From Ignavibacterium sp. (GTDB lineage Bacteria; Bacteroidota; Ignavibacteria; Ignavibacteriales; Ignavibacteriaceae): DNA of 64,000 nucleotides. The translations under genes and the position numbers were made by a program. The notes under the pieces were generated by a model. The model ran no database searches. It was not told the origin of the DNA and saw nothing but the letters and a program-made list of their open reading frames with translations. The DNA lies in contig JAVSMP010000001.1 in assembly GCA_032027145.1 (NCBI GenBank), positions 2,423,116-2,487,115 of the forward strand, given 5' to 3'. Of this stretch, positions 32,752-53,322 are shown one piece after another (the first letter of the stretch is position 1; each line of letters begins with the position of its first letter).

Positions 32752-32752
32752 T

Positions 32753-35551: not shown

Positions 35552-35552
35552 T

Positions 35553-36563
35553 ATGAATGATTTTGGATTTACAGCGGAAGATCAAGTAAAGACTGTGTAT
35601 AAAGGATTAAGCCACGTTGTTATTTTGGGTGCTGGTGCAAGCATAGCTTCTGTTTGTGATAATCCAGAAAAGAATGGAAAACTTCTTCCCTCTATGGATA
35701 ATTTAATTGATATTATTGGTTTAGAGGGTATGCTTAGTAGTAATATCAAAAAATATAATTCAAGAAACTTCGAATTATTATTTTCATCATTATATGAAGA
35801 AAATAAAGATTCTTCATTAATAAAAGATTTGGAAACAGAAGTATATAATTATTTTGATAGTTTAAGCCTGCCTGATACTCCAACTATCTACGATTATCTA
35901 ATTTTATCTTTAAGAAGTAAAGATATTATAGCGACATTCAACTGGGATCCATTTTTATGGCAAGCATTTGTAAGAAATATGGATTTTACCGATAATTTGC
36001 CAAAACTTGCTTTCCTTCACGGAAATGTTGCGGTCGGCGTATGTGAGGAGGACAAAAGTTTTGGCCCTAAATATAAACTAAGTAATAAAAGTAAAAAACC
36101 TTTCCTGCCGACTAAACTTTTATATCCAATCACAAAAAAGGATTATGCAACCAATCCTTACATTGCTGATCAATGGAATCTTTTATCGCAAGGGCTCAAA
36201 AAACCAGCTCGTGTAACAGTCTTTGGGTATTCAGCTCCGAAATCGGATGTTGAAGCAATAAAAATTATGAAGAAAGCTTATGGCAATCCAGAAAATCAAA
36301 GATTTACACAGTTTGAGATCATAGACATAAAAGATAGATATGAATTAGCAGATACTTGGAATGAATTTATTTTCAGTCATCACTATGAGGTGTATAATGA
36401 TTTTTTTGACTCCACAATAATGAGATTTCCAAGAAGAACTGGTGAAGTATTTTGGGAAAACTATATGCAAGCTAAATGGTGGGCACCAAACAACCCTCCA
36501 AGAGTAAATAAATTATCAGAGTTATGGGATTGGTATTCAAAATTTTTACCAGCTGAAAATTAG
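35553..36563 (+). CDS. SIR2-like protein inside the DISARM-like cassette
   Basis: The 336-aa protein has the SIR2 nucleotide-binding start VVILGAGAS (residues 22-30), a TFNWD segment (N130, D132) in place of the usual TxNxD, a FLHGN His near residue 156 and GYSAPKSD near 229, fitting defence SIR2 domains that degrade NAD+ (as in Thoeris ThsA, DSR and SIR2-HerA). It has no extra fused domain. It lies between drmD-like and methyltransferase genes with 2- and 3-bp gaps, so it belongs to this unit. I infer an NAD+-depletion arm added to a DISARM-like system; SIR2 is not part of the canonical DISARM set. Confidence 0.72.
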   Translation: MNDFGFTAEDQVKTVYKGLSHVVILGAGASIASVCDNPEKNGKLLPSMDNLIDIIGLEGMLSSNIKKYNSRNFELLFSSLYEENKDSSLIKDLETEVYNYFDSLSLPDTPTIYDYLILSLRSKDIIATFNWDPFLWQAFVRNMDFTDNLPKLAFLHGNVAVGVCEEDKSFGPKYKLSNKSKKPFLPTKLLYPITKKDYATNPYIADQWNLLSQGLKKPARVTVFGYSAPKSDVEAIKIMKKAYGNPENQRFTQFEIIDIKDRYELADTWNEFIFSHHYEVYNDFFDSTIMRFPRRTGEVFWENYMQAKWWAPNNPPRVNKLSELWDWYSKFLPAEN

Positions 36564-36565
36564 CA

Positions 36566-39500
36566 ATGAAAACAACCGCAATAAAAGTTGAAGGACAAAT
36601 AATTTCACCGGAGATTTTTGATAATCTCGATTCGGGAGAAATTAAAGGTCAATCACCTAAAGATTACGGATTTGATGCTAAGGTAAAAGTTAAAGAAGAA
36701 ATTCAAAGAGCCTGGGCAAATGCAAAAGATCAGTGGAAAATTTTTAAGCGTTACATTGAACCGTTAACTGAAGAAGAATCCGGAACTTCCGAAACAAGAA
36801 GATACTGGATAATTCCACTGCTTAGTTTTCTTGGTTATAATGTTACTGTTTCAAGAGCAGAAATTGTTAACGAAAACTCCTACGCAATAAGCCATCGTGA
36901 TATGAATATTGATGGCTTCCCGATCCACATAGTAAGTTTCAATGATAGTCTTGATAGAAAAAGAGAATCTTCCGGTCCACGTTTATCTCCTCACGCACTG
37001 GTGCAGGAATATCTGAATCTCACAGAACATATTTATGGATTTGTAACAAATGGTTATAAACTCCGACTGCTGCGCGACTCAGGTAAATTAGTCCGGCTTA
37101 CATTTGTTGAGTTTGATCTTCAGAAGATGATGGAAGAAGATCTTTATGCTGAGTTTTCAATTCTCTACAGACTTCTTCACATTACCCGAATGCCGCAAAA
37201 GATGAGTGAAGGTGATATATCTTTAATAGAGCAGTATCATCAGGATTCACTTGAAGCAGGTGCAAGGATACGAGAAAAACTCAGCGGTGCTGTTGAAGAT
37301 TCAATTAAAGTACTTGGCAATGGATTCCTCAGCAATCCCAAGAACCAGGAATTGATTGAACTGATAAAATCCGGACAAATGTCTGCAAATGCTTTTTATC
37401 AGCGTCTGCTCAGACTTGTTTACCGCATACTTTTCCTTATGGTGCTTGAAGAAAGAGATATTGTCTATCCGAATGATGACGGTAATGGTAATACGAAATA
37501 TTACAAAGATCTTTACTACGAATATTACAGTCTGCAGAGGTTAAGAAGACTATCTGAAAAAATTTTCTTCTTTGATGAAAAACTTTTTGATCTGTGGATT
37601 TCACTAAGAAATACGTTCAAAATATTCGGAAGTGAAAATCTTGCTGCAAAAATTAAACTTTATCCGCTGGATGGTGATTTATTTGATTATGGTTCTCTGG
37701 GTGTGTTGAGTGATTCCGATATTGATAACAGGACTTTATTACAATGCATTAAAAACTTAAGTCAGTTTGATGATAAAGACACCAAAAGCATAATAAGAGT
37801 TAATTACTCTGCTCTAAATGTTGAAGAATTTGGCTCCGTGTATGAAGGACTTTTAGAAAAAGCTCCTTCAATAAATTTTGACGGACAGCATTATTCATTT
37901 TCATTTGTTGAAGGAACTGAACGCTCATCTTCCGGTTCCCATTACACACCTGAAGAATTAGTCCAGCCATTAATTAAACATTCTCTTGATTACGTCATCG
38001 AAGATAAAATAAAAGCTGTCATTGCGAGCGGAGCGAAGCAATCTGCTGAAGAAATTAAAAAGGAAAAAGAAAATGCCCTCCTCTCCATCAAAGTCTGTGA
38101 TGTTGCGTGCGGAAGCGGACATATCCTTTTATCAGCAGCAAGAAGAATTGCACAGGAATTAGCAAAAGTAAGAACCGGCGAAGACCAGCCCTCTCCCGAA
38201 CCGTACAGACAGGCAATACGTGATGTTATTAACCATTGCATTTACGGAGTTGATAAAAATCCTCTCGCTGTAGAGCTCTGTAAAGTTGCTTTATGGCTTG
38301 AAGCACATAATCCCGGAATGCCTCTTAACTTTTTAGACCATAAAATTAAATGCGGAGATTCTATTGTGGGACTTGCACGCATTGAAGAGTTGCAGAACGG
38401 AATTGCTACCGAAGCATTTAAAACTCTGCCCGGTTATGATAAGGATATTGCAGCATCTTTCAGAAAGCAGAACAAAACAGAAAGAGAAAACAGGACACAG
38501 TTAAAGCTTACCGATACTGAAGAAATTATTAACAACCTTAATACAATCTCTGTAAAGTTTAAGCACTTTAATTTACTCCCCGATACAACCGTTGATGAAG
38601 TTAAAAAGAAACAGCAGGAATACAACCTGCTTAAAGGCAGCGACTGGATGAAATTAAAAGAGCTTGCAGATATACAGTCTGCACAGTTCTTTATTGATAA
38701 GACAAATGCTAACAAAGAGTTTTTAACCACTGATGCAGAATACTTTAGAATTTTTGCAGGACAGAAAAAGGAAGTAAATACACGCAAAATCTCGCAAGCA
38801 ATGGCAGTTGCTGTAGAGAAAAGATTCTTCCATTGGTTTTTGGAGTTCCCGGAAGTGATGCAGGAAGGTGGATTTGATTGTATTCTTGGGAATCCACCAT
38901 TTAGAGGAGGGCTTTTTATAACAAATGATTATGGTGCTGATTACACTAATTATATAAAGACTTCAATTTCAAATGCTGGGGCTACTACAGATTTAGTAGC
39001 TTACTTTTTTAGACGAACATTCTTCCTAATAAATGAAAAACGGTTTATATCTTTAATCGGAACAAACTCAATTTCGGAGGGTGATACAAGAGAAACTGGA
39101 CTCGAAAAAATTAATGAAACTAATGGATCCATTGTAATGGCAGTTTCTTCAATAAAATGGCCTGGTGTTGCAAATCTTCACGTATCATTGTGTTCTATAT
39201 TTAAAGGTAAATGGAAGGGACCAAAATATCTTAACTTCAAAGAAGTTCTCAACATTGATTCCTGGCTCTCATTAGAAAATAAGAGTGTAAAACCAAATAC
39301 TTTAACGCAGCCAATTTTAGCCTCTCTAGGAACAACTGTATACGGTAAAGGATTTTTCTTAGAGAACAATGAAGCAATGATCCTTATTAATTCAAATAAT
39401 AATTATTCGGAGCTAATCAAACCTTTTCTAAATGGTGATGATGTATTAACAAATCCTAAAGTTGAACCATCAAGAAAGGTATTCTATTTTCAAAAATTAT

Positions 39501-40420
39501 CAGAGGAACAACTACAAAACTATCCTGAGATTTATCAAATAGCGAAAGAGCGAATATTCCCAGAAAGACAAGAAAGTGGAAGTAAAAGAAGAAGAGAAAA
39601 ATGGTGGTTATATACTTCGCCTGCAGAACAAATTTATGAATCGATTAATGACCTAAAATATGTTTTAGTCACTTGTTTTACATCTAAATATATTCTTTTT
39701 GTAAAAACAGCTATTGATATGATATTTTCAAATGCAACAATTGTCATCTCTACTGATAAAAACAAATATTTTTGCATTCTACAAAGTTTTACACACGAAA
39801 TATGGGTAAAAGAATTTAGTTCAACTCTTGAAACAAGACAACGTTATGCGGTTTCAGATTGCTTTGATACTTTTCCATTTCCCCAAAACCACACAAAAGA
39901 GACCGAAGAAGAGCTTGAAAAAATAGGAGAAGAATACCACGAGTTCCGCCGCCAGCTTATGCTGGATATGCAGCTTGGCCTAACAAAAACTTATAACCTA
40001 TTTCATAATCCTCAATGTTCAATGCTCAATGTTCAGTTAGCAAAAGAGATAAGGGAGATTAAGAGTGCCAACCTGCAAATACCAATAGAAGAAGCAATAG
40101 AAAGAATAGAAAAACTTAGAGCACTCCACAAACAAATGGATGAGGCAGTCCTAAAAGCCTACGGCTGGACAGACATCAACCTCGCTCACAACTTTTACGA
40201 AGTAGACTACTTACCAGAAAACGACAGAGTCCGTTACACCATTTCCCCAGAAGCACGTAAAGAAATATTGAAGAGATTATTAGAACTCAACCACAAAATC
40301 CACGAAGAGGAAGTCGCAAAAGGGTTGTGGGAGAAGAAAACCTCAAAGAAGAAAACAAAAGCAACTGAAGTAAGAGAACAACAAGAGAAATATGGACAGG
40401 GAGGGTTGTTTGGAGAGTGA
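36566..40420 (+). CDS. Large N6-adenine DNA methyltransferase (DrmMI/Eco57I-like)
   Basis: The 1284-aa protein has a helical N-terminal region with a possible recognition part, an adenine methyltransferase core with DVACGSGH (from D512; SAM-binding motif I) and NPPF at 776-779 (motif IV), and a long C-terminal specificity-like region. Class 1 DISARM uses such a methylase (DrmMI) to mark host DNA; BREX PglX is also similar, but no BREX partner genes are present. Two small repeat insertions lie within the reading frame (38018-38044 and 40012-40036). Gap to the SIR2 gene is 3 bp. It probably protects host DNA from this cassette. Confidence 0.82.
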   Translation: MKTTAIKVEGQIISPEIFDNLDSGEIKGQSPKDYGFDAKVKVKEEIQRAWANAKDQWKIFKRYIEPLTEEESGTSETRRYWIIPLLSFLGYNVTVSRAEIVNENSYAISHRDMNIDGFPIHIVSFNDSLDRKRESSGPRLSPHALVQEYLNLTEHIYGFVTNGYKLRLLRDSGKLVRLTFVEFDLQKMMEEDLYAEFSILYRLLHITRMPQKMSEGDISLIEQYHQDSLEAGARIREKLSGAVEDSIKVLGNGFLSNPKNQELIELIKSGQMSANAFYQRLLRLVYRILFLMVLEERDIVYPNDDGNGNTKYYKDLYYEYYSLQRLRRLSEKIFFFDEKLFDLWISLRNTFKIFGSENLAAKIKLYPLDGDLFDYGSLGVLSDSDIDNRTLLQCIKNLSQFDDKDTKSIIRVNYSALNVEEFGSVYEGLLEKAPSINFDGQHYSFSFVEGTERSSSGSHYTPEELVQPLIKHSLDYVIEDKIKAVIASGAKQSAEEIKKEKENALLSIKVCDVACGSGHILLSAARRIAQELAKVRTGEDQPSPEPYRQAIRDVINHCIYGVDKNPLAVELCKVALWLEAHNPGMPLNFLDHKIKCGDSIVGLARIEELQNGIATEAFKTLPGYDKDIAASFRKQNKTERENRTQLKLTDTEEIINNLNTISVKFKHFNLLPDTTVDEVKKKQQEYNLLKGSDWMKLKELADIQSAQFFIDKTNANKEFLTTDAEYFRIFAGQKKEVNTRKISQAMAVAVEKRFFHWFLEFPEVMQEGGFDCILGNPPFRGGLFITNDYGADYTNYIKTSISNAGATTDLVAYFFRRTFFLINEKRFISLIGTNSISEGDTRETGLEKINETNGSIVMAVSSIKWPGVANLHVSLCSIFKGKWKGPKYLNFKEVLNIDSWLSLENKSVKPNTLTQPILASLGTTVYGKGFFLENNEAMILINSNNNYSELIKPFLNGDDVLTNPKVEPSRKVFYFQKLSEEQLQNYPEIYQIAKERIFPERQESGSKRRREKWWLYTSPAEQIYESINDLKYVLVTCFTSKYILFVKTAIDMIFSNATIVISTDKNKYFCILQSFTHEIWVKEFSSTLETRQRYAVSDCFDTFPFPQNHTKETEEELEKIGEEYHEFRRQLMLDMQLGLTKTYNLFHNPQCSMLNVQLAKEIREIKSANLQIPIEEAIERIEKLRALHKQMDEAVLKAYGWTDINLAHNFYEVDYLPENDRVRYTISPEARKEILKRLLELNHKIHEEEVAKGLWEKKTSKKKTKATEVREQQEKYGQGGLFGE
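38018..38044 (+). repeat. Dispersed genomic repeat in frame within the methyltransferase gene
   Basis: The segment GTCATTGCGAGCGGAGCGAA with its following bases is a short repeat type widely seen scattered in bacterial genomes. Here it reads in frame as VIASGAKQS (from I486) inside the methyltransferase, next to the SAM-binding motif, without breaking the gene. Confidence 0.65.
40012..40036 (+). repeat. Tandem 7-bp repeats in frame (AATGTTC type)
   Basis: AATGTTC, AATGCTC and AATGTTC follow each other, encoding NPQCSMLNVQ near residues 1149-1158 of the methyltransferase. Such Cys-Ser-Met-Leu-Asn-Val-Gln stretches are known as small repeat insertions in Bacteroidota-type proteins. It lies in a linker and keeps the frame. 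Confidence 0.55.
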
Positions 40421-40450: not shown

Positions 40451-41041
40451 ATGGGACATAAATGCTACATATCATTTAAGGCTGAAGACGAAGACTATAA
40501 AAAACACATTCAAGAAAACTTGAATATTGATATGATAGACAAATCCTTAGATGAACCGATAGAATCACAGGATGAAGACTACATTATGCAGAAAATCCGC
40601 GATGATTATCTTTCAGATTCGACAGTGACTATTCATTTAATCGGTTTATATGGCGCTGAATCAAGAGGATGGTGGGAACAAAGGTTTATTAAAAGAGAAT
40701 TGCAGGCATCATTGTATGATGGAAAAAATAATTCCAGAAGTGGAATATTGGGAGTAGTATTGCCAGAAATGAAAGATGTGATATTCAAAGGATCCATACA
40801 ATGCGTCACTTGCAGTAACTCTCACAATTTAGTTATAGTAAATAATTCAACTGTAATTAGAGAATTTAGTTACAATTATTTTATACCTCATAGTAAATGT
40901 TCTTGGTCAGAAGAAGACAGATATTGTGTGTTAGTTGATTGGGATGATTTTTGTAAAAATCCAGAGCAGTATATAGATCAGGCTTATAATAAAAGAGGTG
41001 AACCAATTGCTAAAAAGGTTAAGGTAAGACCGGATCTTTAA
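40451..41041 (+). CDS. TIR-like (DUF1863/ThsB-type) protein
   Basis: The 196-aa protein has the shape of the MTH538/ThsB-like TIR family: KCYISFKAEDEDYKKHI at the start, a strand VTIHLIGLYGAESRGWW, a helix with Glu in FIKRELQASL (the usual catalytic-glutamate helix), and GILGVVLPEM. TIR proteins of this type make cyclic ADP-ribose signals from NAD+ or degrade it on phage infection. It comes 31 bp after the methyltransferase and before a SLATT membrane gene, a pairing seen in nucleotide-signal defence systems. Confidence 0.72.
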   Translation: MGHKCYISFKAEDEDYKKHIQENLNIDMIDKSLDEPIESQDEDYIMQKIRDDYLSDSTVTIHLIGLYGAESRGWWEQRFIKRELQASLYDGKNNSRSGILGVVLPEMKDVIFKGSIQCVTCSNSHNLVIVNNSTVIREFSYNYFIPHSKCSWSEEDRYCVLVDWDDFCKNPEQYIDQAYNKRGEPIAKKVKVRPDL

Positions 41042-41100
41042 TAATGTCATACTAATATTTTAATGAAAAGTTTTATTAATCAATATTGAGGAGTACTGAT

Positions 41101-41547
41101 ATGACGACTGAAGGATATCTAAAGGAAAGAGTGGATGATCAAATAAAATGGTACGATCAAAAAAGTAAAAACAATCAGTATTGGTTTAAAGGATTACGCA
41201 CTGCTGAAATAATTATTGCTGCCATGATACCTTTTATAAGTGGTATTACTGCAAGTTATGAAGGGTTTGAGAAAACAGGTTTAATACTTCTTGGTTTAGC
41301 AGGAGTTATTATCGCCATAATAGCTGGGGTTTTAAGTCTAGGTCAATTTCAAGAACACTGGATTGAATACAGAACTGTATGCGAAAGCTTGAAGAAAGAA
41401 AAGTTTTTATTTAAAACAGGAGCCGAACCTTACGGGCACGATGATTCATTTAATCTATTAGTTCAGAGAGTTGAAACACTAGTCTCGCAAGAAAATACTA
41501 ATTGGGCTCAGTATATGATGAAGCGAGAAAAGAAGGAGAAAAATTAA
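41101..41547 (+). CDS. SLATT-domain (DUF4231-like) membrane effector
   Basis: The start at 41101 is chosen over an in-frame TTG at 41086 because GAGGAG precedes the ATG. The 148-aa protein has an amphipathic N-terminus (VDDQIKWYDQKSKNNQYWFK), two helices (residues ~28-48 and ~57-76) separated by a short loop, and a C-terminal helix with ESLKKEKFLFKTGAEPY. This is the SLATT pattern, a predicted pore-forming effector that opens when a nucleotide signal binds its partner. It follows the TIR-like gene by 60 bp. A TIR signal gating the pore is inferred. Confidence 0.75.
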   Translation: MTTEGYLKERVDDQIKWYDQKSKNNQYWFKGLRTAEIIIAAMIPFISGITASYEGFEKTGLILLGLAGVIIAIIAGVLSLGQFQEHWIEYRTVCESLKKEKFLFKTGAEPYGHDDSFNLLVQRVETLVSQENTNWAQYMMKREKKEKN

Positions 41548-41566
41548 GTTTTTCATTTAATAAAAA

Positions 41567-42253
41567 ATGTGCATACCTATGGCAGTTATTGATACACTAA
41601 AAAATGTGATTGTTATTGTTGATTCAATTAAAAACAACCTTTCCATTCCGGATACTTTAAAAATAAACCTTTTAGAAAGTAATAAGACTTTCTATGAAGA
41701 ATCATGGTTCATAGCTCTAATAGCAGCAGCAATTGCAGCTTTAGCTACTATAATAGGTGCTATTATAGGTCAAAGACTCCAACGTAGGACACTTAAAGAA
41801 ATATATAATGAACAAGGTTATTTAAATCGCGATAAAGAGTTATTCACAATGCGAATGAATGGATGTCTTCAGATTGCTGAAGCTATGTCTGTATTATATC
41901 ATGTTACATTGTATAAAAAAGATGGGAATAACCTTCCAGTCCTACCTACATCTTATATTACCTATCAAAATTTAAAAGACTGGAATACAGATACAACTAA
42001 ACTTGTTGATCGTAAGTTGCTTCTTTTAAATCAGGAAATCTACTCAAAATTCACTGATGTTAATCAAATGGTTCTTGATCATCTGAAGGAAATTGAAGAA
42101 AGTCAAAAACCTCAACATGAATGGGATAAATTCTGTCGTGAAATAGGCAGGAGAGAATGTGGATTCATTCAAGAAAAACAATCTACGGTAGTTAAAGCAA
42201 TGAGAGATTTTATTAAGGCTGAGTATAATATTGATTTGGAAGAAGTGAGGTAA
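41567..42253 (+). CDS. One-TM protein of unknown function next to SLATT
   Basis: The 228-aa product may start at the ATG at 41567 or 41579; neither has a strong ribosome site. It has one membrane helix (SWFIALIAAAIAALATIIGAIIG, residues ~45-67) preceded by a short N-terminal part, and a long helical cytoplasmic domain (~75-228) with several amphipathic segments. I do not recognise a family. The tight order (20 bp from the SLATT gene, 6 bp to the next gene) makes it a partner of the TIR/SLATT set. Confidence 0.6.
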   Translation: MCIPMAVIDTLKNVIVIVDSIKNNLSIPDTLKINLLESNKTFYEESWFIALIAAAIAALATIIGAIIGQRLQRRTLKEIYNEQGYLNRDKELFTMRMNGCLQIAEAMSVLYHVTLYKKDGNNLPVLPTSYITYQNLKDWNTDTTKLVDRKLLLLNQEIYSKFTDVNQMVLDHLKEIEESQKPQHEWDKFCREIGRRECGFIQEKQSTVVKAMRDFIKAEYNIDLEEVR

Positions 42254-42258
42254 ATACA

Positions 42259-43650
42259 ATGAAAATTGTTGTGATTGATTTTACTTCGAACTCTAAAAAG
42301 ACACTAAAAGGTGTAGTTGAAAAAATGAACGATACCCAATCAGAGTTTAAATTTGAGTATCAGCAAGGTCGGAGTGAAGATAGGCAGAGTCTTAAAGAGT
42401 CAATTGAATGGGATCAAGGTTTCGAATTATTAAAGCAATACAAATCAAATACAGAAAATGACAATGCAATTGGAATATTTAGTTTACCATTAGAAAATAA
42501 TTGGTTTAGTGTTACAAGATTTGAAGAGAAAGCTAGTTTAATTACTACTAATGATTGGGAATTTATTTCACATCTTAATATTGAATCATTTCTAACATTG
42601 GAATTGATAGAAAATCTATTAGAACAATTAGTTTATCATTCAGACTACAACTTTGCTCACGAACCCCCGATAGGTTGTATTCACGATATGTGTGGTTGGA
42701 AGACGGATATAAATCTGAAGATATTAACTGCATACATTTGCCCTCGATGTGTTGAAATGTTACAAAGCCATATAAGTGGCGAAAAATTAGATGCAACCTT
42801 TAAGTTACTCGAGTTAGCAAGAAATTATGCTTTTAATAAAATATCAGTTACCGATGAACCCAACGAACAGGAGATAATCTTTCCTGTTTCTATTTACATT
42901 AGAAAATTAAAGCACGAACCCGATATAAGAGAAAAATTTAGCTTGCTGCTAGACCTTTTTGATGTTTCTGTAAGAGTATCAACGATAATTTTATCATCAA
43001 GATTAAAAGAGATAATCCCAGATTATTTGAATGTAACCGAAAGAGGGAATCCCTCCTTAGGTGATTGGGTTAGTGGGTTAAATGAGGCTAAAGTTCAACT
43101 GGAGAGTACCCAAGATTCTTTTTTTTCTAATTATTATTCCTCGTTAAAAGAGGCACATTCTCTCATCTGCAGAACCGAATTGGTAAAGTTGAGAAACGAT
43201 ACCAAGGGTCACGCATACACTTTACCCCCTTTTCAGTTACAAAAGTATTTCCAGGAATATTACCCTACTGTAACTGAATTAATAAAAGTCTTGCGAAAGT
43301 TTTTAAGTCAGAAATTATTAATGGTTGATCGTTGCACTTTTGATAGAGGAATAGATTCATTTAAGTTAATAGCATCAGAGGTAAATGGTGATAACCCGGT
43401 TTTTGTAAAAAAAGAATATCGAATAAAGAAGTCTATTCCAAGACAAGAAATATTAAATAGTAAGAATGAAATGTTAATCTTTAACTCTGATAAAACGGAC
43501 TTCATCTCCTTGTTTCCTTATTTGATTTATACTATTTGTCCAACCTGCGGTCAACCAAGAAATTTAATAATTGATTCAGAAAAAAAATATTTAGATCTGT
43601 TAGTAGGCCATAGGGTTACGATAACGGATTTTAATTCAATTGAATGCTAA
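42259..43650 (+). CDS. Uncharacterised Cys-rich 463-aa protein
   Basis: The protein has two clusters of possible zinc ligands: GCIHDMCGWK with CPRC ~20 residues later (residues ~142-172), and a C-terminal CPTCGQPR (~434-441). The N-terminus (MKIVVIDFTSNSKKTLKGV) is compact; the middle is helical (~170-320). I do not recognise it as a protease or a known effector. Zinc-dependent folding is inferred from the Cys pairs. It lies 6 bp after the one-TM gene and 19 bp before the next small gene. Confidence 0.6.
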   Translation: MKIVVIDFTSNSKKTLKGVVEKMNDTQSEFKFEYQQGRSEDRQSLKESIEWDQGFELLKQYKSNTENDNAIGIFSLPLENNWFSVTRFEEKASLITTNDWEFISHLNIESFLTLELIENLLEQLVYHSDYNFAHEPPIGCIHDMCGWKTDINLKILTAYICPRCVEMLQSHISGEKLDATFKLLELARNYAFNKISVTDEPNEQEIIFPVSIYIRKLKHEPDIREKFSLLLDLFDVSVRVSTIILSSRLKEIIPDYLNVTERGNPSLGDWVSGLNEAKVQLESTQDSFFSNYYSSLKEAHSLICRTELVKLRNDTKGHAYTLPPFQLQKYFQEYYPTVTELIKVLRKFLSQKLLMVDRCTFDRGIDSFKLIASEVNGDNPVFVKKEYRIKKSIPRQEILNSKNEMLIFNSDKTDFISLFPYLIYTICPTCGQPRNLIIDSEKKYLDLLVGHRVTITDFNSIEC

Positions 43651-43668: not shown

Positions 43669-43974
43669 ATGGACTCACAATCGAAGAAAATTTTATGGAT
43701 CCATATCAAATCGGCGTTGCGACAAGATATTTCATCACGCAACCTCAAAGATCCCAAAATCCGATTAAGAGCAATTGAAAATCTTGAAGAGCAGCTCAGG
43801 AATCATTTCCCTCAAATTTATAGCAATCCAATTGAGCTATTAAATCACGATAGAAATGAATTTAAACGCAAGTTGGGACAATATAAACCAACCGGCAGTC
43901 TCAGTGGTGCAGAGGAGAGCATCATTAATAATATTTATGATTATTTGGAACGTTTTAAGGATAATAATCAATAA
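43669..43974 (+). CDS. Small helical protein opening the PLD/helicase module
   Basis: The 101-aa protein is charged and helical (KKILWIHIKSALRQDI, IENLEEQLRNHFPQIYS, ESIINNIYDYLERFK). No family recognised. It has a GGAAGAGAAA-type ribosome region before its ATG. It comes 19 bp before the 434-aa gene and may be a regulatory or scaffold subunit of the module that follows. Confidence 0.6.
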   Translation: MDSQSKKILWIHIKSALRQDISSRNLKDPKIRLRAIENLEEQLRNHFPQIYSNPIELLNHDRNEFKRKLGQYKPTGSLSGAEESIINNIYDYLERFKDNNQ

Positions 43975-43992
43975 AATTAATGTTTACACATT

Positions 43993-45297
43993 ATGTTAAG
44001 TCCATATCTATCAGAATACGATGAAAGTACATCCAGTGAAGGAAGTCTGGACCCATTAGGGCTTTACCCAATTTCAGATCAATTAGCTACAAAATTAGTC
44101 CCGGGTTTTAGAGAAAGAATGCGTCATCCAAGATATCTTACAACTATCGCTGCTGGAATGGTTATTTGCAGTGAATTTGATGAAGACATTGCTGCCTCAG
44201 ATGATAGAACAGAACCCTGGCAAATTTATGAGTGGTATGCAGTTCACGCTTTATATGCAAAGTATAGAACAGATGATGAGACTCAGCTAATCGGTTTACC
44301 CGGAATAGATAAAGCAAAGAAAGCATACAATGCAAATATATCTTTGAATCCATCTTCTTATCTCAAAATGGCAACCGTATTCGGTTTTCACGGTGTTTAC
44401 AGGACTCTTGCTAAGGATTTAAAACTAATTGATACAAACATTCTGGGGGAATTCGGAGATGAGCTTATAAGAACATGGGAGAAAGAGGAAAATCTGGAGG
44501 GATTTTATTCTTCGCCATTCGGTTCGGGAAGGGATTTAAGAAAGCAATTTTACAATGCCATTAATGATTCGCTAAAAACTACTTCAATCGCAAGAAATAG
44601 AAATTGGAATGCTTTTTATGAATTGGCTGAACACATAGCACCATACAAAATTAATCCCATTGAACGGAAACTGCTTTATAACAAAATAATTGGAGAAATA
44701 GACTCATATCGATATCAGGTAATTAAAACAATTGAGTTAAGTGAAGTTCAAAAAATCTGGAATGATACCGGTTCTGAAAAAGAAATTCATAAAATTTTGT
44801 TTTCTTCAGCAACCAATGATTTAAAACATTTACTTAAAGCAATTTTTCAGTACGAAGAATTTGCACGCCTGCTACAGGATGCATTTGATTCTTGCTTATA
44901 CGTAATGAGTGGTCGCTCGTCAACGAGAATTAATGACTTAAAAAATAATACTGAAATTACTAAGGCAGGTAAAAAAGTTAGTGATAGTTATAAAAAAGCA
45001 ATTGATGCAATAAGTGAATATGGATTGTCATTTCAATTTGAAGAGCGATTTTCCACATTTGAAAAAGCGGTATCGGTTCCTGACTGGATTAATTTACTAT
45101 TCGAGCATCATGAAACTACACAAAAGAATAAGCCACCTAATGGAAAAAGACCATGGTTTGAAAGAACTAATGATAGCAGATTTTTAATTTATCCGGGAAA
45201 TCGACGAGATGAAAGTCCCACAGGTGAGGACTTATATGTTCATTATTATCGCACGACTCCTTTAGTATCATTTCTGAAAGATTTAGGTAAAATATAG
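43993..45297 (+). CDS. 434-aa protein of the PLD/helicase module (possible DUF6361 relative)
   Basis: The protein opens with DPLGLYPISDQLATKLVPGF and then RHPRYLTTIAAGMVI, which recalls the DUF6361 start (a ...IRDAFSDxLFPGxS ... RARYFLFIPW pattern) found next to PLD-like genes, but the match is weak. The rest is mostly helical with FGSGRDLRKQFYNAIN and RTTPLVSFLKDLGKI at the end. No catalytic motif is evident. It is followed after 2 bp by the PLD gene, so they very likely work together. Confidence 0.6.
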   Translation: MLSPYLSEYDESTSSEGSLDPLGLYPISDQLATKLVPGFRERMRHPRYLTTIAAGMVICSEFDEDIAASDDRTEPWQIYEWYAVHALYAKYRTDDETQLIGLPGIDKAKKAYNANISLNPSSYLKMATVFGFHGVYRTLAKDLKLIDTNILGEFGDELIRTWEKEENLEGFYSSPFGSGRDLRKQFYNAINDSLKTTSIARNRNWNAFYELAEHIAPYKINPIERKLLYNKIIGEIDSYRYQVIKTIELSEVQKIWNDTGSEKEIHKILFSSATNDLKHLLKAIFQYEEFARLLQDAFDSCLYVMSGRSSTRINDLKNNTEITKAGKKVSDSYKKAIDAISEYGLSFQFEERFSTFEKAVSVPDWINLLFEHHETTQKNKPPNGKRPWFERTNDSRFLIYPGNRRDESPTGEDLYVHYYRTTPLVSFLKDLGKI

Positions 45298-45299
45298 AG

Positions 45300-47369
45300 A
45301 TGGCTAAGAATAATAATCAGGGTATTCAAAAATTATTAGACTACTGGGAACCTCCTGATAACATTAAAGAACCAATTGGTTGTATTGCTACAACTTTTAC
45401 ATTTGATTCTAGTTTCTTTGAGGAACAATGTCTTACAAGATTCGTTAAAATGGAATCAGATGCTTTTTCGGATGGTCCCGCTTATTTAATAGAACGTGAA
45501 GAAAAATTCTCAGCATTAAAATGTGCTTCGGTTTTGGTTGATGCAAACCATTGTAGAGGGAAAAGAAGTCTGCGATGGGATCTTTTACCTTTTAAATCTA
45601 ACCATGGAGTACTTCACGCAAAGATTTCGCTATTGTATTGGGTAAATTATGTAAGAATTATAATAGGTTCTGCTAATCTTACTGAGGATGGTTATAGAAA
45701 AAATCAGGAGGTTTTTGGTGTTGTTGATTTCTATCAGGATTCAGAAGCGCCTTACGATTTTTTAACTCAGACTCTTGAGTATTTAAGTTTATTAATTGAA
45801 CAAAGCCAATACGATATTCAAAGTACGGCAGTAGATCGATATAGAGAATTTATAACTCTGGTTACTAAAAATTCGCGTAGTTGGAATAAAGAAAAGAAAT
45901 TTAATAAGAAAAAAGATGTTGCAATTCATCCGATCTTTACTCATCAAAATTCAAACGATTTGTTAAATCAGGTTAAAAAAGTATGGTATGAATATGCGAC
46001 AAGACCTCCTAAGTGGGCATATATAAATAGTCCCTTTTTCGATCCTCCCAATGCTGAGAATAAACCTGCGAAAAAAATATGGGAGATTCTTAATCAAAGG
46101 GGAAATGCTGAAGTTCAATACAATATAATTGCCGAAGATGATAAAGCAGTTGAAAATAAGCTGGTACTTTATGCTCCCGAAAGTTTAGACTACGCACCTG
46201 AAAACCGAAGTGAAGCATATGTGAATTTTGCAACACTTAGTGAGTGGGAAAATAAACGGTACAGACCAATACATATGAAATCCATTTTTCTTGAAAACGA
46301 AAATTGGTATTTCTATATAATTGGTTCAAGTAACTTCACATCAGCCGGATTAGCCTTGGGAAAACAAAAGAATTATGAAGCAAACATTTTATATGTAACA
46401 AATTCAATAAAAAACAAAGATGGAGAAAAATCATTAATTAATGCCTATATGGATGGTGAATTAATTGATGATGGGTTAATACTTGAATGGATTCCCAGAG
46501 AAGATGAGGATAAGTCTACAGAAGACCAACTACCTACTCTTCATAAAGCTTTCAAATCGGCTTCGTTAAATTTCAAAAGGGATAAGTTTATTATTGAGTT
46601 AGACCTTGATCAGGAGATAATGCCTAAATCATTTTACATTTATGATGAGCTGATGAAAAAAGAATTATATAATTCAGATGAATGGAAAAATGTTGGAAAA
46701 CCTTCAAATGTAATTATTGAATATGAAGAGCAAAGACCACCTTCTGGACTATTTGTAAAATGGGATAAGTTAAGTGTAACAGTTTGGTGGCCGATAAACA
46801 TATTAAATTCTTCAGTTCTTCCACCACCTGAGGAGCTCAAAGATTTACCATTAGAAGTGCTGCTCAATGTGCTATCCTCCTCGAAACCTCCGCATAGAGT
46901 GATTAGCGAATGGTTAAAGAAACAAAAGAAAACAAATGGTGAATCTGACGCCAGTCCACTTATAGATCCGCATAAACGAGTTAACACTTCAACATTTCTT
47001 CTGCAAAGAACAAGAAAAATTTCTTATGCGCTAACTGCATTAAAAGAAAAACTTCAAAAACCGATATATACCATTGAAAGTTTGAATTGGCGAATATTCG
47101 GACCAGTTGGTGTAAAAGCACTTTGTAAAGCAATTACCGAGACCGCAAAATCAGAGGAAGAAAAAGCTTTTCTACTCACTGAAATTGTTTTTGAGTTAAA
47201 AAATGTAAAACCGCATATTTCCAAAGAGACTATAAGCAAGTCAGAGTACAAGAAAACTATAGATGAAATAACTAGTGAGTTAAAAAAGGAAATTGACAAT
47301 CTGGATTTAACTAAGGACCAACAGTTGAACGACTACATTACGAGTGTTTTCCAGGAAATTGAGAAATGA
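45300..47369 (+). CDS. Two-HKD phospholipase-D/Tdp1-like nuclease
   Basis: The 689-aa protein has two HKD-type motifs: HAKISLLYW with IIIGSANLTEDGYR (H106, K108) and HMKSIFLEN with IGSSNFTSAGLALG (H325, K327). The two-motif layout with GSANLT and SSNFT resembles Tdp1-like and DrmC-like PLD enzymes, which cut or release phosphodiester bonds. The C-terminal third is a long helical part (~530-689). It overlaps the following helicase gene by 4 bp (ATGA), which indicates translational coupling. A DNA-end nuclease role is inferred. Confidence 0.82.
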   Translation: MAKNNNQGIQKLLDYWEPPDNIKEPIGCIATTFTFDSSFFEEQCLTRFVKMESDAFSDGPAYLIEREEKFSALKCASVLVDANHCRGKRSLRWDLLPFKSNHGVLHAKISLLYWVNYVRIIIGSANLTEDGYRKNQEVFGVVDFYQDSEAPYDFLTQTLEYLSLLIEQSQYDIQSTAVDRYREFITLVTKNSRSWNKEKKFNKKKDVAIHPIFTHQNSNDLLNQVKKVWYEYATRPPKWAYINSPFFDPPNAENKPAKKIWEILNQRGNAEVQYNIIAEDDKAVENKLVLYAPESLDYAPENRSEAYVNFATLSEWENKRYRPIHMKSIFLENENWYFYIIGSSNFTSAGLALGKQKNYEANILYVTNSIKNKDGEKSLINAYMDGELIDDGLILEWIPREDEDKSTEDQLPTLHKAFKSASLNFKRDKFIIELDLDQEIMPKSFYIYDELMKKELYNSDEWKNVGKPSNVIIEYEEQRPPSGLFVKWDKLSVTVWWPINILNSSVLPPPEELKDLPLEVLLNVLSSSKPPHRVISEWLKKQKKTNGESDASPLIDPHKRVNTSTFLLQRTRKISYALTALKEKLQKPIYTIESLNWRIFGPVGVKALCKAITETAKSEEEKAFLLTEIVFELKNVKPHISKETISKSEYKKTIDEITSELKKEIDNLDLTKDQQLNDYITSVFQEIEK

Positions 47370-50167
47370 GTTATAGCTACAGTTTTGAAAATAATATAGA
47401 TCTTTTTGTAAAGGACAGAATTTCTTTTGAGGATGCTAAGAGGCAAATGGCGACCACTCGGGAAATTCTGATGAGGTTAGAAAACCAACCAGGACTCATA
47501 CTTGCAGATGAAGTTGGAATGGGTAAAACATTTATCGCGTTAGCAGTGGCTGTTTCAATAGCATTGCAGGATTCTCAAAAAAGACCAGTCGTTGTTATGG
47601 TGCCAACCTCGCTCAGAGATAAATGGCCTAAAGACTTTAATTTATTTAAAGAAAAGTGTTTGCCGCTAAATTTATCTAACAAACTTACATATGGTTTTTC
47701 GGATAAAGCAGTTGATTTTTTGAAATTCCTGGATGATCCTAAAGAGAGAATGAAGTCAATTGTTTTTCTTACTCACGGGGCTATGAGTCGAGGTCTTACT
47801 GATGGGTGGGTTAAACTGGCTATTATAAAACGTGCTCTGTTTAACAGGAAAGATACTCGTTTATTGAAAAAAGCATTATCACGTATTCTAGGAGATTTGC
47901 TATTTCTAAAATGGGCAACCAAAGATGAAAATATGTGGATTGATTTATTAGAAAGCCATACAGAGAAGTGGTTAAATATAATTCGTGATTATGGAGTTGA
48001 TCCCGAAGGAGACAATGACAGCTCATCGGATGATGACCCCGTACCAGAAGCAATAACAAAAGTTCTTGAAGAATTACCAACAATTTATTTTGAAGAATTA
48101 TATCAAGCCATTTGCAATATTCCTAAGAAATCATCTCCATATCTGAATGAAAGAATAAAAACTACACGTGCAATATTAAATGAAAACATAAGAGACATTT
48201 GGGAAAAAACAGTCAGATCACTAAGTGTTAAATTACCGTTGCTTATACTGGACGAGGCTCATCATTTAAAAAATGCACGAACTCGACTGGCCTCACTATT
48301 TAATACGGAAGATTCAATTGAAGATGCAGATGAGTTTTCTAAGGGTTCATTATCAGGAATATTCGAAAGAATGCTTTTTCTAACAGCCACTCCTTTTCAA
48401 TTGGGCCATCATGAACTTTGTTCAGTTCTTGATCGATTTTCCGGTATCTCTTGGTCGGGACAAAGATCACCATCAATTACACTTACTGAGTATAAAACTG
48501 AAATTGATGAATTAAGAAGCAGATTAGATAAAACGCAAGTAAGCTCATTGAGATTGGAATCTGCCTGGAGCAGAATGCAAATTAAATCCAATAATTCAAT
48601 AGATGTTGATACTTGGTGGGATAGGATTCTTGATAAAGGAAATAAGGACCCTGATATAGATGATCTAATTCAAAAGATTGAAGATGTAAAAAGTAGTGTG
48701 AAAAATGCGGAAATATTGTTGAAGAAATATGTTATAAGACACAATAAGAGCAAATATTTGCCTGGAGATTTTGCTAATGTTAAACGACGAGAGAATCTTA
48801 TTGGTAAAGCAATACTTGATGACATAACGTCTTCAGATGAGATTGATGGATTGAGCATTAAAGATAATTGCATATTACCATTCCTGCTGGCATCGAGAGC
48901 AGCTGTGCTTAATGCTGCAGCAAGGCCTGTGTTTGCCGAGGGATTGGCATCTAGTTATGAGGCTTTCTTAAATACTAGAAAGTCAAAGGTTACAACCGAT
49001 AGTGATGATGAAGAAATTTCAATAGATAATTATAATGAGTGGTATCATTCAAATATAGAAAAGTATATTTCTACTGAATTACAAAATTCATCTGAAATTA
49101 CTCATCCTAAAGTATCAGCCACAGTCAAAAAAGCAGTAGAGCTATGGATGAAAGGTGAAAAAGTATTAATATTTTGTCACTATATAGCTACTGGAAAGTC
49201 TTTAAGACAATATATCTCTTATTCACTCAATAAATATATTCAGGAAGAAGCAGCTAAAAAACTAGGATGTGACTTATCAGAGACAGAGAAGAGACTTGAT
49301 AATATCGGCAAACGATTCTCAACTAAGGATTCGCAATTCATGTTGGCCTTTGAGAATGAAATGAACACGATGATAAAGAACTATCATTCAATTAAAAAGC
49401 ATAAAGATGATGTGATTGAAATTATAAAAAGATATATAAGGACGCCTTCATTTCTGATTAGATTTTTCCCACTTGATATGCAGGAGAGATTCAGCAAAGA
49501 AACACTTTTGGAGGCAATGGGAAATAAGGATCTTTCCGGAATTACATTAAGAGAAACGATTCTTGACTTTTTTAATTTTCTGGAAAATAAGTGTGGAGTG
49601 AATGAAAGAGAAAAGTATATCGGAGCTTTATTGGATATACAAACAGGAAATATACTAAGTGCTGATGCACGCAAATTTTTGATGGATGATGAAATTCAAA
49701 ACGAAAGGACTGAACTACTAATACCCAATGTAAGATTGGTAAATGGAGATACAAAGTCAGAAACCCGGCAAAATCTGATGTTGACCTTCAATACTCCATT
49801 TTATCCAGATATATTAATTACAAGCAGTGTTCTAGCAGAAGGAGTTGATTTACATTTAAACTGTCGATTTATAATTCACCACGATTTATCTTGGAATCCT
49901 AGTACACTGGAACAAAGAACTGGTCGCATTGATAGAATTGGCTCAAAAACTGAAAGATCTGGAAAATCAATCAATGTTTTTATTCCATATGTATCTGAAA
50001 CCCAGGATGAAAAAATGTATAGAGTAGTTATGGATAGAGAGAAATGGTTCAAGATTGTAATGGGCGATAATTATAAAGCAGATGTCAAATCAACGGATAA
50101 AATCTCGGAAAGAATTCCCTTGCCCAGCAAACTTACTGAAGAATTAGCGTTTAACTTAGAGATTTAG
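47366..50167 (+). CDS. SNF2-type helicase paired with the PLD protein
   Basis: The 933-aa protein has GLILADEVGMGKT (Walker A 51-55), DEAHHLKN (DEAH 296-299), LTATPFQLG, EGVDLHLN and QRTGRIDRIG (from residue ~850). These define a complete SF2/SNF2 motor. Long insertions lie between the two halves (residues ~370-620). It is a second, distinct motor from the DrmD-like one. Its start overlaps the PLD stop. The pair resembles helicase-nuclease defence modules, but it does not match a system I can name. It is the last of the tightly packed genes. Confidence 0.82.
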   Translation: MSYSYSFENNIDLFVKDRISFEDAKRQMATTREILMRLENQPGLILADEVGMGKTFIALAVAVSIALQDSQKRPVVVMVPTSLRDKWPKDFNLFKEKCLPLNLSNKLTYGFSDKAVDFLKFLDDPKERMKSIVFLTHGAMSRGLTDGWVKLAIIKRALFNRKDTRLLKKALSRILGDLLFLKWATKDENMWIDLLESHTEKWLNIIRDYGVDPEGDNDSSSDDDPVPEAITKVLEELPTIYFEELYQAICNIPKKSSPYLNERIKTTRAILNENIRDIWEKTVRSLSVKLPLLILDEAHHLKNARTRLASLFNTEDSIEDADEFSKGSLSGIFERMLFLTATPFQLGHHELCSVLDRFSGISWSGQRSPSITLTEYKTEIDELRSRLDKTQVSSLRLESAWSRMQIKSNNSIDVDTWWDRILDKGNKDPDIDDLIQKIEDVKSSVKNAEILLKKYVIRHNKSKYLPGDFANVKRRENLIGKAILDDITSSDEIDGLSIKDNCILPFLLASRAAVLNAAARPVFAEGLASSYEAFLNTRKSKVTTDSDDEEISIDNYNEWYHSNIEKYISTELQNSSEITHPKVSATVKKAVELWMKGEKVLIFCHYIATGKSLRQYISYSLNKYIQEEAAKKLGCDLSETEKRLDNIGKRFSTKDSQFMLAFENEMNTMIKNYHSIKKHKDDVIEIIKRYIRTPSFLIRFFPLDMQERFSKETLLEAMGNKDLSGITLRETILDFFNFLENKCGVNEREKYIGALLDIQTGNILSADARKFLMDDEIQNERTELLIPNVRLVNGDTKSETRQNLMLTFNTPFYPDILITSSVLAEGVDLHLNCRFIIHHDLSWNPSTLEQRTGRIDRIGSKTERSGKSINVFIPYVSETQDEKMYRVVMDREKWFKIVMGDNYKADVKSTDKISERIPLPSKLTEELAFNLEI

Positions 50168-50194: not shown

Positions 50195-50590
50195 ATGGCA
50201 GAAATAGCAAGAAATAGCACAGGTTTATCAGGCGAATATTTTGTTGCAGCTGAATTGCTTCGTAGGGGATTTAATGTTGCAATAACTATGGGCAACGCAA
50301 AGGCAATAGATTTAATTGCTGAGAAAAAAGGGAAGACCTTTCCAATACAAGTGAAATCTATTTACAAAAAGAAAAATGTAGGTTGGCCAATACTTAAAAG
50401 TAAAGTTAAAAGAAATCATTTTTATGTTTTCGTAAATCTTAATGCTGATAAGATGGAAGAGCCGGTATATTTTATTTGTACTGCTGCTGAGGCAAAGAGA
50501 AATATAAAAGAGTATTCAACCAGAGGGATATTGAATATGTATTTAATTAACAATGATAAATTCAAGAGTCGGTGGGATAAGATTAAATAA
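50195..50590 (+). CDS. Small PD-(D/E)XK nuclease-like protein
   Basis: The 131-aa protein has the small PD-(D/E)XK layout: E13 in STGLSGEYFVAAELLRR, D36 in KAIDLIAEKKG, and the QVKSIYKKKN strand with K48 about ten residues later. Similar small proteins are labelled intron- or mobile-element endonucleases, and as holliday-junction-like or DUF4365-type enzymes. It may cut DNA. It is 28 bp after the helicase gene and is likely part of the same transcript. Confidence 0.65.
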   Translation: MAEIARNSTGLSGEYFVAAELLRRGFNVAITMGNAKAIDLIAEKKGKTFPIQVKSIYKKKNVGWPILKSKVKRNHFYVFVNLNADKMEEPVYFICTAAEAKRNIKEYSTRGILNMYLINNDKFKSRWDKIK

Positions 50591-50617: not shown

Positions 50618-51400
50618 ATGCTCGGCGCAATAACAGGCGACATAATTGGTTCGATCTATGAATTCATAGACACGAAACCAGAAATGGATTTCACTCTGTT
50701 TACTAATGAATCCTTCTTTACAGATGATTCGGTTTTAACTGTTGCTTTGGCTGACAGTATATTATCTGGCACTGTTTATAGAATAAAACTTCTCGAGTAT
50801 TACCATCAGTATCCGGATTGTAGCTATGGATTAAGATTTCACGAATGGGTAAACAGTAAAAACCCACAGCCTTATAATAGCTGGGGAAACGGATCAGCTA
50901 TGCGGGTTAGTCCTGTTGGCTGGGCTTATAATGATCTTGAAACAGTCTTACAAAAAGCAAAAGAGAGTGCAGAAGTAACGCATAATCATCCTCAAGGAAT
51001 TAAGGGTGCTCAATCAACTGCTGCTTCAATATTTCTTGCACGCACAAAAAATTCCAAAAAAGAAATAAAAGAATTCGTAGAAAAGAATTTTGAGTATAAT
51101 CTAGATTTGGATCTTGAAGAATTAAGAGAAAATTATCGCTTCAATGAAAGTTGCCAGGATACTGTACCTCAAGCAATCTTCACTTTTTTAATCTCAGATT
51201 CTTTCGAAGACTCAATTAGGAAAGCAATTTATATCGGCGGTGATTCTGATACACTTGCTGCAATTAACGGATCAATAGCAGAAGCTTTTTATGGCGGAGT
51301 TCCGCAAGAGATTAAGGTAGAGATTTATAAAAGGTTGGATGAAAGATTAATGGCTGTCAGCGCTAACTTTATTGAAAAGTATATGTCATATATTTATTGA
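50618..51400 (+). CDS. ADP-ribosylglycohydrolase family protein
   Basis: The 260-aa protein has the family's metal-binding signatures: FTDDS (residues 34-38) and GGDSDTLAAINGSIAEA (~210-226), plus NSWGNGSAMRVSPVG and VTHNHPQGIKGAQ. Members remove ADP-ribose from proteins (DraG-like) or from other substrates. Its position after SIR2- and TIR-type genes, both NAD+ consuming, suggests relief or clean-up of ADP-ribose signals; this is inferred. A perfect-stem terminator follows. Confidence 0.88.
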   Translation: MLGAITGDIIGSIYEFIDTKPEMDFTLFTNESFFTDDSVLTVALADSILSGTVYRIKLLEYYHQYPDCSYGLRFHEWVNSKNPQPYNSWGNGSAMRVSPVGWAYNDLETVLQKAKESAEVTHNHPQGIKGAQSTAASIFLARTKNSKKEIKEFVEKNFEYNLDLDLEELRENYRFNESCQDTVPQAIFTFLISDSFEDSIRKAIYIGGDSDTLAAINGSIAEAFYGGVPQEIKVEIYKRLDERLMAVSANFIEKYMSYIY

Positions 51401-51413
51401 GCTTTAATCAAAT

Positions 51414-51444
51414 AACCCCTGCTGATTGTGGGGGTTAATTTTTT
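51414..51444 (+). terminator. Intrinsic terminator after the ADP-ribosylglycohydrolase gene
   Basis: AACCCC at 51414-51419 pairs with GGGGTT at 51431-51436 and a T-run follows to 51444. It closes the defence-type run and separates it from the AlkB-like gene. Confidence 0.85.
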
Positions 51445-51474
51445 ATATTCCATATTATAAAAAGGAATAATTTT

Positions 51475-52023
51475 ATGTTCGGAATATCAGGACTATTGTA
51501 CATTCCAGATTATATCACGTCCGATGAAGAATCAACTCTATTAAAAACAATAAATAAACAGCAGTGGGATAATACACTAAGCAGACGAGTGCAGCATTAT
51601 GGTTATCGATACGACTATAAAGCCAGAACAGTGACTCCTGAGATGTACATTGGAGCTTTACCTAAGTGGTTAAATGATCTGGCTGTTCAATTACATAATG
51701 ATGGCTTGTGTGAAGAAGCTCCAGACCAGGTTATTGTGAATGAGTATCAGCCAGGGCAAGGGATATCTGCACACATCGATTGTGAAAGTTGTTTTGGACC
51801 AAGAATATTCAGCTTGTCATTAGGAAGCACTGCGATAATGGAATTTACTCTTGAAGGAAAACCAAAGAAGGAAATACTACTAGATCGAAGATCTTTGGTG
51901 ATAATGTATGGTGATGCAAGATCAATTTGGAAGCATAGCATACCTGCTCGTTTGAAAGATAAAGGAATTGAAAGGGGAACAAGAATCAGCCTGACTTTTA
52001 GAAATGTTGAGAAAGATTTTTAA
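51475..52023 (+). CDS. AlkB-like Fe(II)/2-oxoglutarate dioxygenase
   Basis: The 182-aa protein has the AlkB core: H100-x-D102 in ISAHIDCE, H154 in IWKHSIPAR as the third iron ligand, and R170 in GTRISLTFR, which binds 2-oxoglutarate. AlkB proteins repair alkylated DNA or RNA bases by oxidative demethylation. An AAAGGA ribosome site precedes the start. It has its own transcript after the terminator, running toward the integrase gene, whose stop codon is only 4 bp away on the other strand. Confidence 0.92.
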   Translation: MFGISGLLYIPDYITSDEESTLLKTINKQQWDNTLSRRVQHYGYRYDYKARTVTPEMYIGALPKWLNDLAVQLHNDGLCEEAPDQVIVNEYQPGQGISAHIDCESCFGPRIFSLSLGSTAIMEFTLEGKPKKEILLDRRSLVIMYGDARSIWKHSIPARLKDKGIERGTRISLTFRNVEKDF

Positions 52024-52026
52024 GTT

Positions 52027-53124
52027 TTAGTTGCCATTCTGAATTTTATCTAGTTTCTCTGCCGTTTCTCTCATGTAATCAGGTGAAAAGTGAGCATAAA
52101 TTTTTGTTGATTCTAAGTCGGAATGAGATAAGAAATTCATCAGCTCATGGTAACTACCAATCTTCATAACAAAATTAGCTCCAAACGTATGTCTGAGCAT
52201 ATGAATGGTCCCTTTAAAATCAGTTTTAGACAATACTTTATTTAGCTTTTCATTAGGAGTGGCTTGGCGGATTTTCTTGCCCTTTTCATTCACAAATACA
52301 TAGCGAGAGTGTTTACCAACTTGTTGTTTCAATATTTCAAAGGCAGTTTTAGTCATTCGAATTGTGTGTATTTTTCCCGATTTAGTTTGAAATTCATCTG
52401 TAGAGATAATAGTCATCGTAGGATTATTTTCATCCATGGAAACATTATCCCATGTTAAATTTATTAGTTCCTTTTTGCGCAAACCTGTATAGACATAAAA
52501 TTTAAAGATTGGAACCCAGTATGGATCAAGATTTTCCCAGATTACTTTTAGCTGATCATCAGTATAATATTTAACAGTGTTTGTCTTTGGCACTTTAAAG
52601 GGAACAGTTTCAGATGCTGGATTGGTATCAATATATTTCTCCTTAATAGCATTATTAAACATTTCAATCAATAAATCTCGGAGTATATTAACAGTATTTT
52701 TATGCCATGGCTTCTTCTTATTAACTGGTTCATTGGTTAATCTATTAAAACACGCCTGCAAATATTTTGAAGATATTAGTATAATATTTTCACATGCTGG
52801 AGAAAAATATTTATACATAAACTTTTCAAATCCATCAAAATAATTTTTGTATCTACTATAAGTTGTTTTTCGAACAATACCTGATTTAGTATTTAAATAC
52901 TGAGCTATCAGTTCTTTTAAGGAAATGATCTTTGATTGAGCAGGATAAATGCCATGAATTCCTAATGTAAGTTTTTGTTGCCTATCCGCTCTTATTAATT
53001 CAGCATCTCTTTTATTGTGAGCAACAATTTCTCTTATTCTTTTTCCATTTAGGTTATAATCAAGCTGATATGATATTTTATTTTTGCGCCTTACTGGAAC
53101 TAGTTTTACAACAGGTACTTTCAT
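52027..53124 (-). CDS. int: Tyrosine recombinase (integrase) of the element
   Basis: The 365-aa protein has an N-terminal part with an arm-binding and core-binding layout (~1-170) and a catalytic domain with R216 (YTGLRKKEL), H308-x-x-R311 (HMLRHTFG), H334 (LSHSDLE) and the nucleophile Y343 (TKIYAHF). All key residues are present, so it is probably active. The gene reads away from tRNA-Leu(CAA), which it abuts by about 110 bp, the normal place of an integrase beside its attachment site. Direct repeats at 53162-53180 may be recombinase binding sites. Confidence 0.93.
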   Translation of the reverse strand: MKVPVVKLVPVRRKNKISYQLDYNLNGKRIREIVAHNKRDAELIRADRQQKLTLGIHGIYPAQSKIISLKELIAQYLNTKSGIVRKTTYSRYKNYFDGFEKFMYKYFSPACENIILISSKYLQACFNRLTNEPVNKKKPWHKNTVNILRDLLIEMFNNAIKEKYIDTNPASETVPFKVPKTNTVKYYTDDQLKVIWENLDPYWVPIFKFYVYTGLRKKELINLTWDNVSMDENNPTMTIISTDEFQTKSGKIHTIRMTKTAFEILKQQVGKHSRYVFVNEKGKKIRQATPNEKLNKVLSKTDFKGTIHMLRHTFGANFVMKIGSYHELMNFLSHSDLESTKIYAHFSPDYMRETAEKLDKIQNGN

Positions 53125-53225: not shown

Positions 53226-53236
53226 CGAGAATTGAG

Positions 53237-53322
53237 TACCGAAGGCCGGACTCGAACCGGCACCTGGTGTAAGCCAGACTGGATTTTGAGTCCAGCGCGT
53301 CTACCAATTCCGCCACTTCGGC
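53237..53322 (-). tRNA. tRNA-Leu (anticodon CAA)
   Basis: An 86-nt gene with acceptor stem GCCGAAG/CTTCGGT (first pair G-T), anticodon stem CTGGA/TCCAG around loop CTCAAAA (CAA anticodon), a leucine-type long variable arm, and a T-arm with GGTTCGAGTCC. CCA is not encoded. An integrase gene follows its 3' side, as in tRNA-targeted elements. Confidence 0.95.

Follow-up and report, generated by a model that had tools for sequence, protein, structure and literature searches.

The question raised by this locus is whether a short run of genes in an Ignavibacterium genome constitutes a new defence module, as a sequence-only reading had proposed, and if so which genes belong to it. The window, a 64,000-nucleotide stretch (G000:C1:2423116-2487115), comes from a 3.67-Mb genome assembled as a single contig. 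The four open reading frames that had been predicted are present at their predicted positions, all on the plus strand: a 101-aa ORF (43669-43974), gene A (434 aa, 43993-45297), gene B (689 aa, 45300-47369), and gene C (933 aa, 47366-50167). The 2-bp gap between A and B and the 4-bp overlap of B with C are as originally described; the gap between the 101-aa ORF and A measures 18 bp, not 19.

Comparison with other genomes, a check proposed at the outset, reduces this run to three genes. Orthologues of A, B, and C (50, 45, and 62% identity) occur in the same order and on one strand at a locus, L004, in a genome of the same order but another family (G460), amid other neighbouring genes. Because the arrangement recurs in another family, it is unlikely to reflect chance. 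At L004 we found no homologue of the 101-aa gene, and no match to the 463-aa gene upstream or the 131-aa gene downstream of the window cassette. The 101-aa gene is present in three of the 146 genomes of the order, namely this one, G419 (same genus), and G406. In G406 (locus L080) it lies near a DrmMI-like methyltransferase 63% identical to that of the window, and no A, B, or C was found within the 19 kb read around it. L004 thus has A-B-C without the 101-aa gene and G406 has the 101-aa gene without A-B-C, so the core is A-B-C, and we rejected the four-gene module. Overall, the order and strand of A, B, and C are constant in all 11 loci where all three could be shown: the window, its counterpart in G419 (L003, B broken), L004, L025/L027 (counted once), L030, L032, L011, L012, L018, L023 (where C is an ORF without annotation), and L024. 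Distances in the eight loci measured range from -17 to +6 for A to B and from -43 to +37 for B to C.

C carries the SNF2 motif set (ADEVGMGKT at 47, DEAH at 296, LTATP at 339, and QRTGRIDR at 850) and scores above the Pfam cut-offs for SNF2-rel_dom and Helicase_C, in agreement with its first description as an SNF2-type helicase; we refer to it as an SNF2-type SF2 ATPase. A PDB sequence search with the C profile returned 14 chains at 1e-5, of SNF2/RapA type. Because all SNF2 proteins match one another, C was judged by score order and by tree. Among the PADLOC matches listed, the nearest model is that of PDC-M27C (130.6 bits, 1.7e-38), followed by DrmD (88.3 bits, 1e-25) and ZacC (1e-23), and the C profiles give window C the same ranking (PDC-M27C, 2.7e-44; ZacC, 3e-17). 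In a tree of 14 rows the window groups with L004 (100/100), PDC-M27 groups with L025 (99/98), and the Zac proteins form a separate clade that excludes the window (100/100). No grouping of window C with ZacC was found in this tree.

B was correctly recognized as a two-HKD protein of the PLD superfamily. We identified two HxK...GSxN sites (H106/K108/N126 and H325/K327/N345/E360), and the H, K, and N of both are invariant in the four divergent B rows aligned. The best PADLOC model is ZacB (4.4e-12, over two short stretches), followed by DrmC (3e-7) and PDC-M27B (2.9e-4, residues 99-161); the ZacB model did not report the window genome at 1e-5. Among profiles the strongest match to window B is B' (2.8e-15), the PLD protein of about 800 aa that accompanies a protein of about 530 aa, A', in the A'-B' pairs L019-L022; PDC-M27B (1.8e-6) and ZacB (6e-4) follow, with no decoy better than 0.4. 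The B tree (15 rows) again joins the window with L004 (100/100), unites the Zac proteins (100/100), and places PDC-M27 with L025 (93/91); in the B and C trees alike the links between these groups are not resolved, with long branches flagged by the program. A PDB sequence search with the B profile gave no chain at 0.1. An AlphaFold2 model of B (pLDDT 47.8, pTM 0.34) was too poor for use; with it, Foldseek returned no hits at E <= 0.001 and 371 at E <= 10, the best being 3hsi at 0.12.

The pairing of a PLD-type protein with a helicase in one operon therefore stands as first described, including the remark that the partners differ from those of DISARM and Mokosh. DISARM, like the window cassette, includes a PLD protein and an SNF2-type helicase, and the PADLOC matches of B to DrmC and of C to DrmD might suggest a DISARM or Mokosh subtype. 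We consider this extremely improbable, given that the window cassette has no DrmA or DrmB, that the NCBIfam cut-offs are missed by far (DrmC on B, 26 of 133 bits; DrmD on C, 106.6 of 610 and 46 of 950 bits), and that C scores 131 bits against PDC-M27C versus 88 against DrmD. No Mokosh model appeared among the 10 PADLOC matches for B or the 25 of 49 listed for C, in a library that presumably includes Mokosh models.

The 434-aa protein A is more remote from known families. We found no family match in Pfam or NCBIfam, and specifically none to Pfam DUF6361, the family to which ZacA belongs, at E up to 1. PADLOC models give A 0.005 for PDC-M27A, over residues 2-27, and 0.015 for ZacA; the window genome was not reported by the PDC-M27A model at 0.001 or by the ZacA model at the limit used. 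A fourth group of loci (L025/L027) provides an intermediate: its A reaches 2.5e-18 with PDC-M27A and, in a tblastn comparison, 0.001 with window A. With L025 included in the PDC-M27A group, hhalign aligns A over 385 columns at E 2.5e-8 (score 67.1; best of 150 column shuffles 24.8, reversed 18.6, with 0 of 150 as good), in three collinear blocks that include an N-terminal DPLGL block and a C-terminal block ending in a G..PW motif. Without this bridging row the E-value is 0.003 and only the C-terminal part is aligned. A and A' have about 200 columns in common (6.3e-5, 0 of 150 shuffles as good). The similarity of A to ZacA alone is N-terminal (5.2e-4, 1 of 150 shuffles as good), and the window and PDC-M27 A proteins combined match ZacA and A' combined at 7.5e-9 over 162 columns (0 of 60 shuffles as good); PDC-M27A against ZacA directly gives 0.1.

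When searched against 442 decoys (222 ORFs and 220 shuffles), the PDC-M27A model found window A at 7.7e-6, and none of the decoys appeared up to E 1. The window A model, built from the window and L004, found two apparent ATP synthase gamma subunits (5e-6 and 7e-6) ahead of L025 (2e-4), these two decoys having been chosen from 395 genomes for their likeness to A. Because such gamma-subunit-like proteins outscore L025, single E-values of this size prove little, and the claim of homology is carried by full-length collinearity and shared operon position. On these grounds A is judged to be a full-length remote homologue of PDC-M27A once the intermediate L025 is included, with an N-terminal part that appears homologous to ZacA/DUF6361. 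The faint resemblance to DUF6361 noted earlier thus appears to be genuine. A PDB sequence search with the A profile gave three chains at E <= 1 (best 0.032), none sensibly related. The AlphaFold2 model of A (pLDDT 50.6, pTM 0.36) was also too poor for use; the A and B models were built from alignments of three and four rows. With both structure models this poor, the role of A is a guess.

The window family is rare and patchy. At E <= 0.001 the A profile matches in 3 of 395 genomes of the phylum (this one, G292, and G007); the G292 and G007 matches look, by eye, like ATP synthase gamma subunits and were dropped, and we take the genome of the window to be the one true occurrence and the other two to be chance matches. 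The B profile matches in 3 of 146 genomes of the order (G000, G419, and G460), the C search at 1e-60 in 1 of 148, the genome itself, and a pattern scan of genome contigs with C returned two loci, L003 and L004. Searches of plasmids with the A and B sequences, and of viral contigs with the A sequence and the ZacA and PDC-M27A alignments, gave no result. Such a distribution, together with horizontal movement and placement among defence genes (see below), argues against a Tdp1-like operon for host DNA repair or plasmid maintenance, a reading toward which the L004 B protein leans with a sub-threshold match to Tyr-DNA_phospho (0.035) and which we regard as very unlikely.

Six plasmid records match C; the five read comprise the two PDC-M27 loci (L030 and L032), a DrmD locus (L029), and two broken or partial loci (L028 and L031). 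In 247 genomes the PDC-M27A model gave just two weak matches, both with internal stops, and ZacA three: the Zac loci L011 and L012 and one of the A' family. Forty-three plasmid records match ZacA, and the three read (L018, L023, and L024) are all Zac. A viral contig (L026:4931-16278) has a PLD gene resembling ZacB and a helicase gene resembling PDC-M27C, with a 405-aa gene ahead of them and genes of 885 and 1048 aa after them; it was left out of the A-B-C count because homology of the 405-aa neighbour to A was not shown.

The surroundings of the cassette bear on its mobility. The segment 42861-53322 is identical to the corresponding segment of IGN3 (CP053447.1, L003) except for a one-base length difference in B. 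It ends at a tRNA-Leu (caa) gene (53236-53322, minus strand), and a tyrosine-type integrase (52027-53124, minus strand) lies at its right end. Identity with IGN3 stops exactly at the end of the tRNA-Leu gene, beside the integrase, and flanking sequence is only 87% (methyltransferase end) or 88-89% (three genes beyond the tRNA) identical; by this comparison the segment moved very recently between two related species. Comparison of the tRNA-Leu region with all of the window to its left revealed no direct repeat of at least 13 bases. The IGN3 copy of B (L003:5934-8004) has its reading frame broken by a single base in a homopolymer, through decay or assembly error.

Other genes on the segment include one for a 463-aa protein with a conserved CxxDxC...CPxC-like stretch (42259-43650), whose relatives occur in 6 of 247 genomes including this one, one of them adjoining the Zac locus L012. 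Downstream, 27 bp past C, is the 131-aa PD-(D/E)XK protein (50195-50590), which resembles part of PDC-S01 (6e-6), followed by genes for an ADP-ribosylglycohydrolase and an AlkB-like 2OG-Fe(II) oxygenase (50618-52023). Farther upstream, positions 40451-42253 encode a ThsB-like TIR protein, a SLATT/DUF4231 two-helix protein, and a 228-aa protein, possibly a TIR-SLATT pair without ThsA. Positions 27631-40420 encode a DruE/YprA-like helicase of 1706 aa, a DpdE/DrmD/BrxHII-like ATPase of 932 aa, a 336-aa gene, and a DrmMI-like methyltransferase. This order fits an ARMADA type I-like operon as outlined in portions of a preprint (PMC12458937), the assignment being ours.

Defence-type genes thus lie near the cassette here (Thoeris-like ThsB, DrmMI-like) and elsewhere (type I restriction and SIR2 at L004, DRT genes at L030, and a GajB-like gene at L018). 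One alternative is that A-B-C is an add-on to neighbouring restriction-type systems, in this case the ARMADA-like operon, and uses their methyltransferase to tell self from non-self. Consistent with this, the genes form a single unbroken run on the plus strand with the methyltransferase upstream, a fragment of a type I restriction gene lies upstream at L004, and two A'-B' pairs (L019 and L022, on plasmids of Myroides and Prevotella) are embedded in or adjoin type I restriction-modification (RM) operons. However, no methyltransferase was found among the annotated or listed neighbours of L030, L032, L018, and L024 in the stretch read, and the exchanged segment has A-B-C without one. We therefore regard an add-on as unlikely.

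The reading we favour is that A-B-C forms a DNA-degrading cassette directed against mobile elements, most likely phages, and belongs to the Zac/PDC-M27 kind as a deep variant. Translocation on duplex DNA is a property of SNF2 motors, and PLD nucleases function without metal. A precedent is offered by SauUSI, which combines a PLD nuclease, an SF2 ATPase, and a recognition part; as described in sections of PMC7913695, target recognition activates translocation by the ATPase, and the nuclease shreds DNA. SauUSI differs in being a single polypeptide, in which each chain has one PLD site and an SRA-type domain serves for recognition. By analogy, A would gate the complex after recognizing some feature of infection or of the invading DNA, C would spend ATP moving along double-stranded DNA, and B would cut DNA without metal, its two half-sites standing in for the dimer formed by single-site PLD nucleases, among them BfiI and SauUSI. 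Work that SauUSI performs in one chain would thus be divided over three proteins. From the constant A-B-C order, the homology of A, the invariant sites of B, the defence neighbours, the recent transfer, and the SauUSI precedent, we infer both the defensive role and the mechanism, with moderate confidence. The substrates of PLD-superfamily enzymes include lipid, RNA, and DNA, and instead of a C-guided DNA nuclease B could be an abortive-infection effector that attacks RNA or membranes. Its partner is an SNF2-type ATPase and its recognizable relatives in the libraries are nucleases or DrmC-like, which makes such an effector quite unlikely.

How, then, does the cassette stand among named systems? 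PDC denotes a putative defence candidate, mostly unvalidated according to excerpts of PMC12988326. A literature search turned up no assay for members of either Zac or PDC-M27 (the preprint defining PDC, 10.1101/2024.01.29.577857, lay outside its reach), no mention of DUF6361 or PDC-M27, none of Zac as a defence system among the papers listed, and no origin for the name Zac. Like the window and L004, the PDC-M27 loci L030 and L032 encode A, B, and C in one order on one strand, and PDC-M27 is the candidate to which C is nearest among the PADLOC matches listed and to which A aligns over 385 columns. In contrast, window A and B barely reach its models (0.005 over 26 residues, and 3e-4), and the B and C trees put the two families in separate clades. 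Zac (ZacA/B/C), also a PADLOC candidate, has the same gene order, the best PADLOC match of window B, and the shared N-terminal region of A, yet window A lacks a DUF6361 match and C scores ZacC below PDC-M27C. The A'-B' pairs provide the strongest profile match to B but differ in having no C directly downstream of B' in the four read, so an operon of this sort need not include the motor.

As PADLOC already lists two candidates in A-B-C order, the arrangement is not new in kind. The suggestion of a new module thus survives only for the subtype, for which we found no defined counterpart, and the best reading places the window family within the Zac/PDC-M27 kind, as a deep variant that is new and has its own clade in the B and C trees. 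We think it slightly more probable than the converse that Zac, PDC-M27, the window family, and the RM-associated A'-B' pairs make up one ancient superfamily, with a common A and two-site PLD nuclease and an SNF2 motor repeatedly gained or lost. A would then represent a novel class of sensor or licensing subunit, at present divided by PADLOC among unrelated names. The comparison brings two separately listed candidate systems and an RM-associated gene pair under a single A-B(-C) plan, with an A family, without known fold or function, common to the Zac, PDC-M27, window, and A'-B' groups. Beside Zac and PDC-M27, the window family offers a small, testable cassette and a third well-separated branch that should be useful for finding conserved residues.
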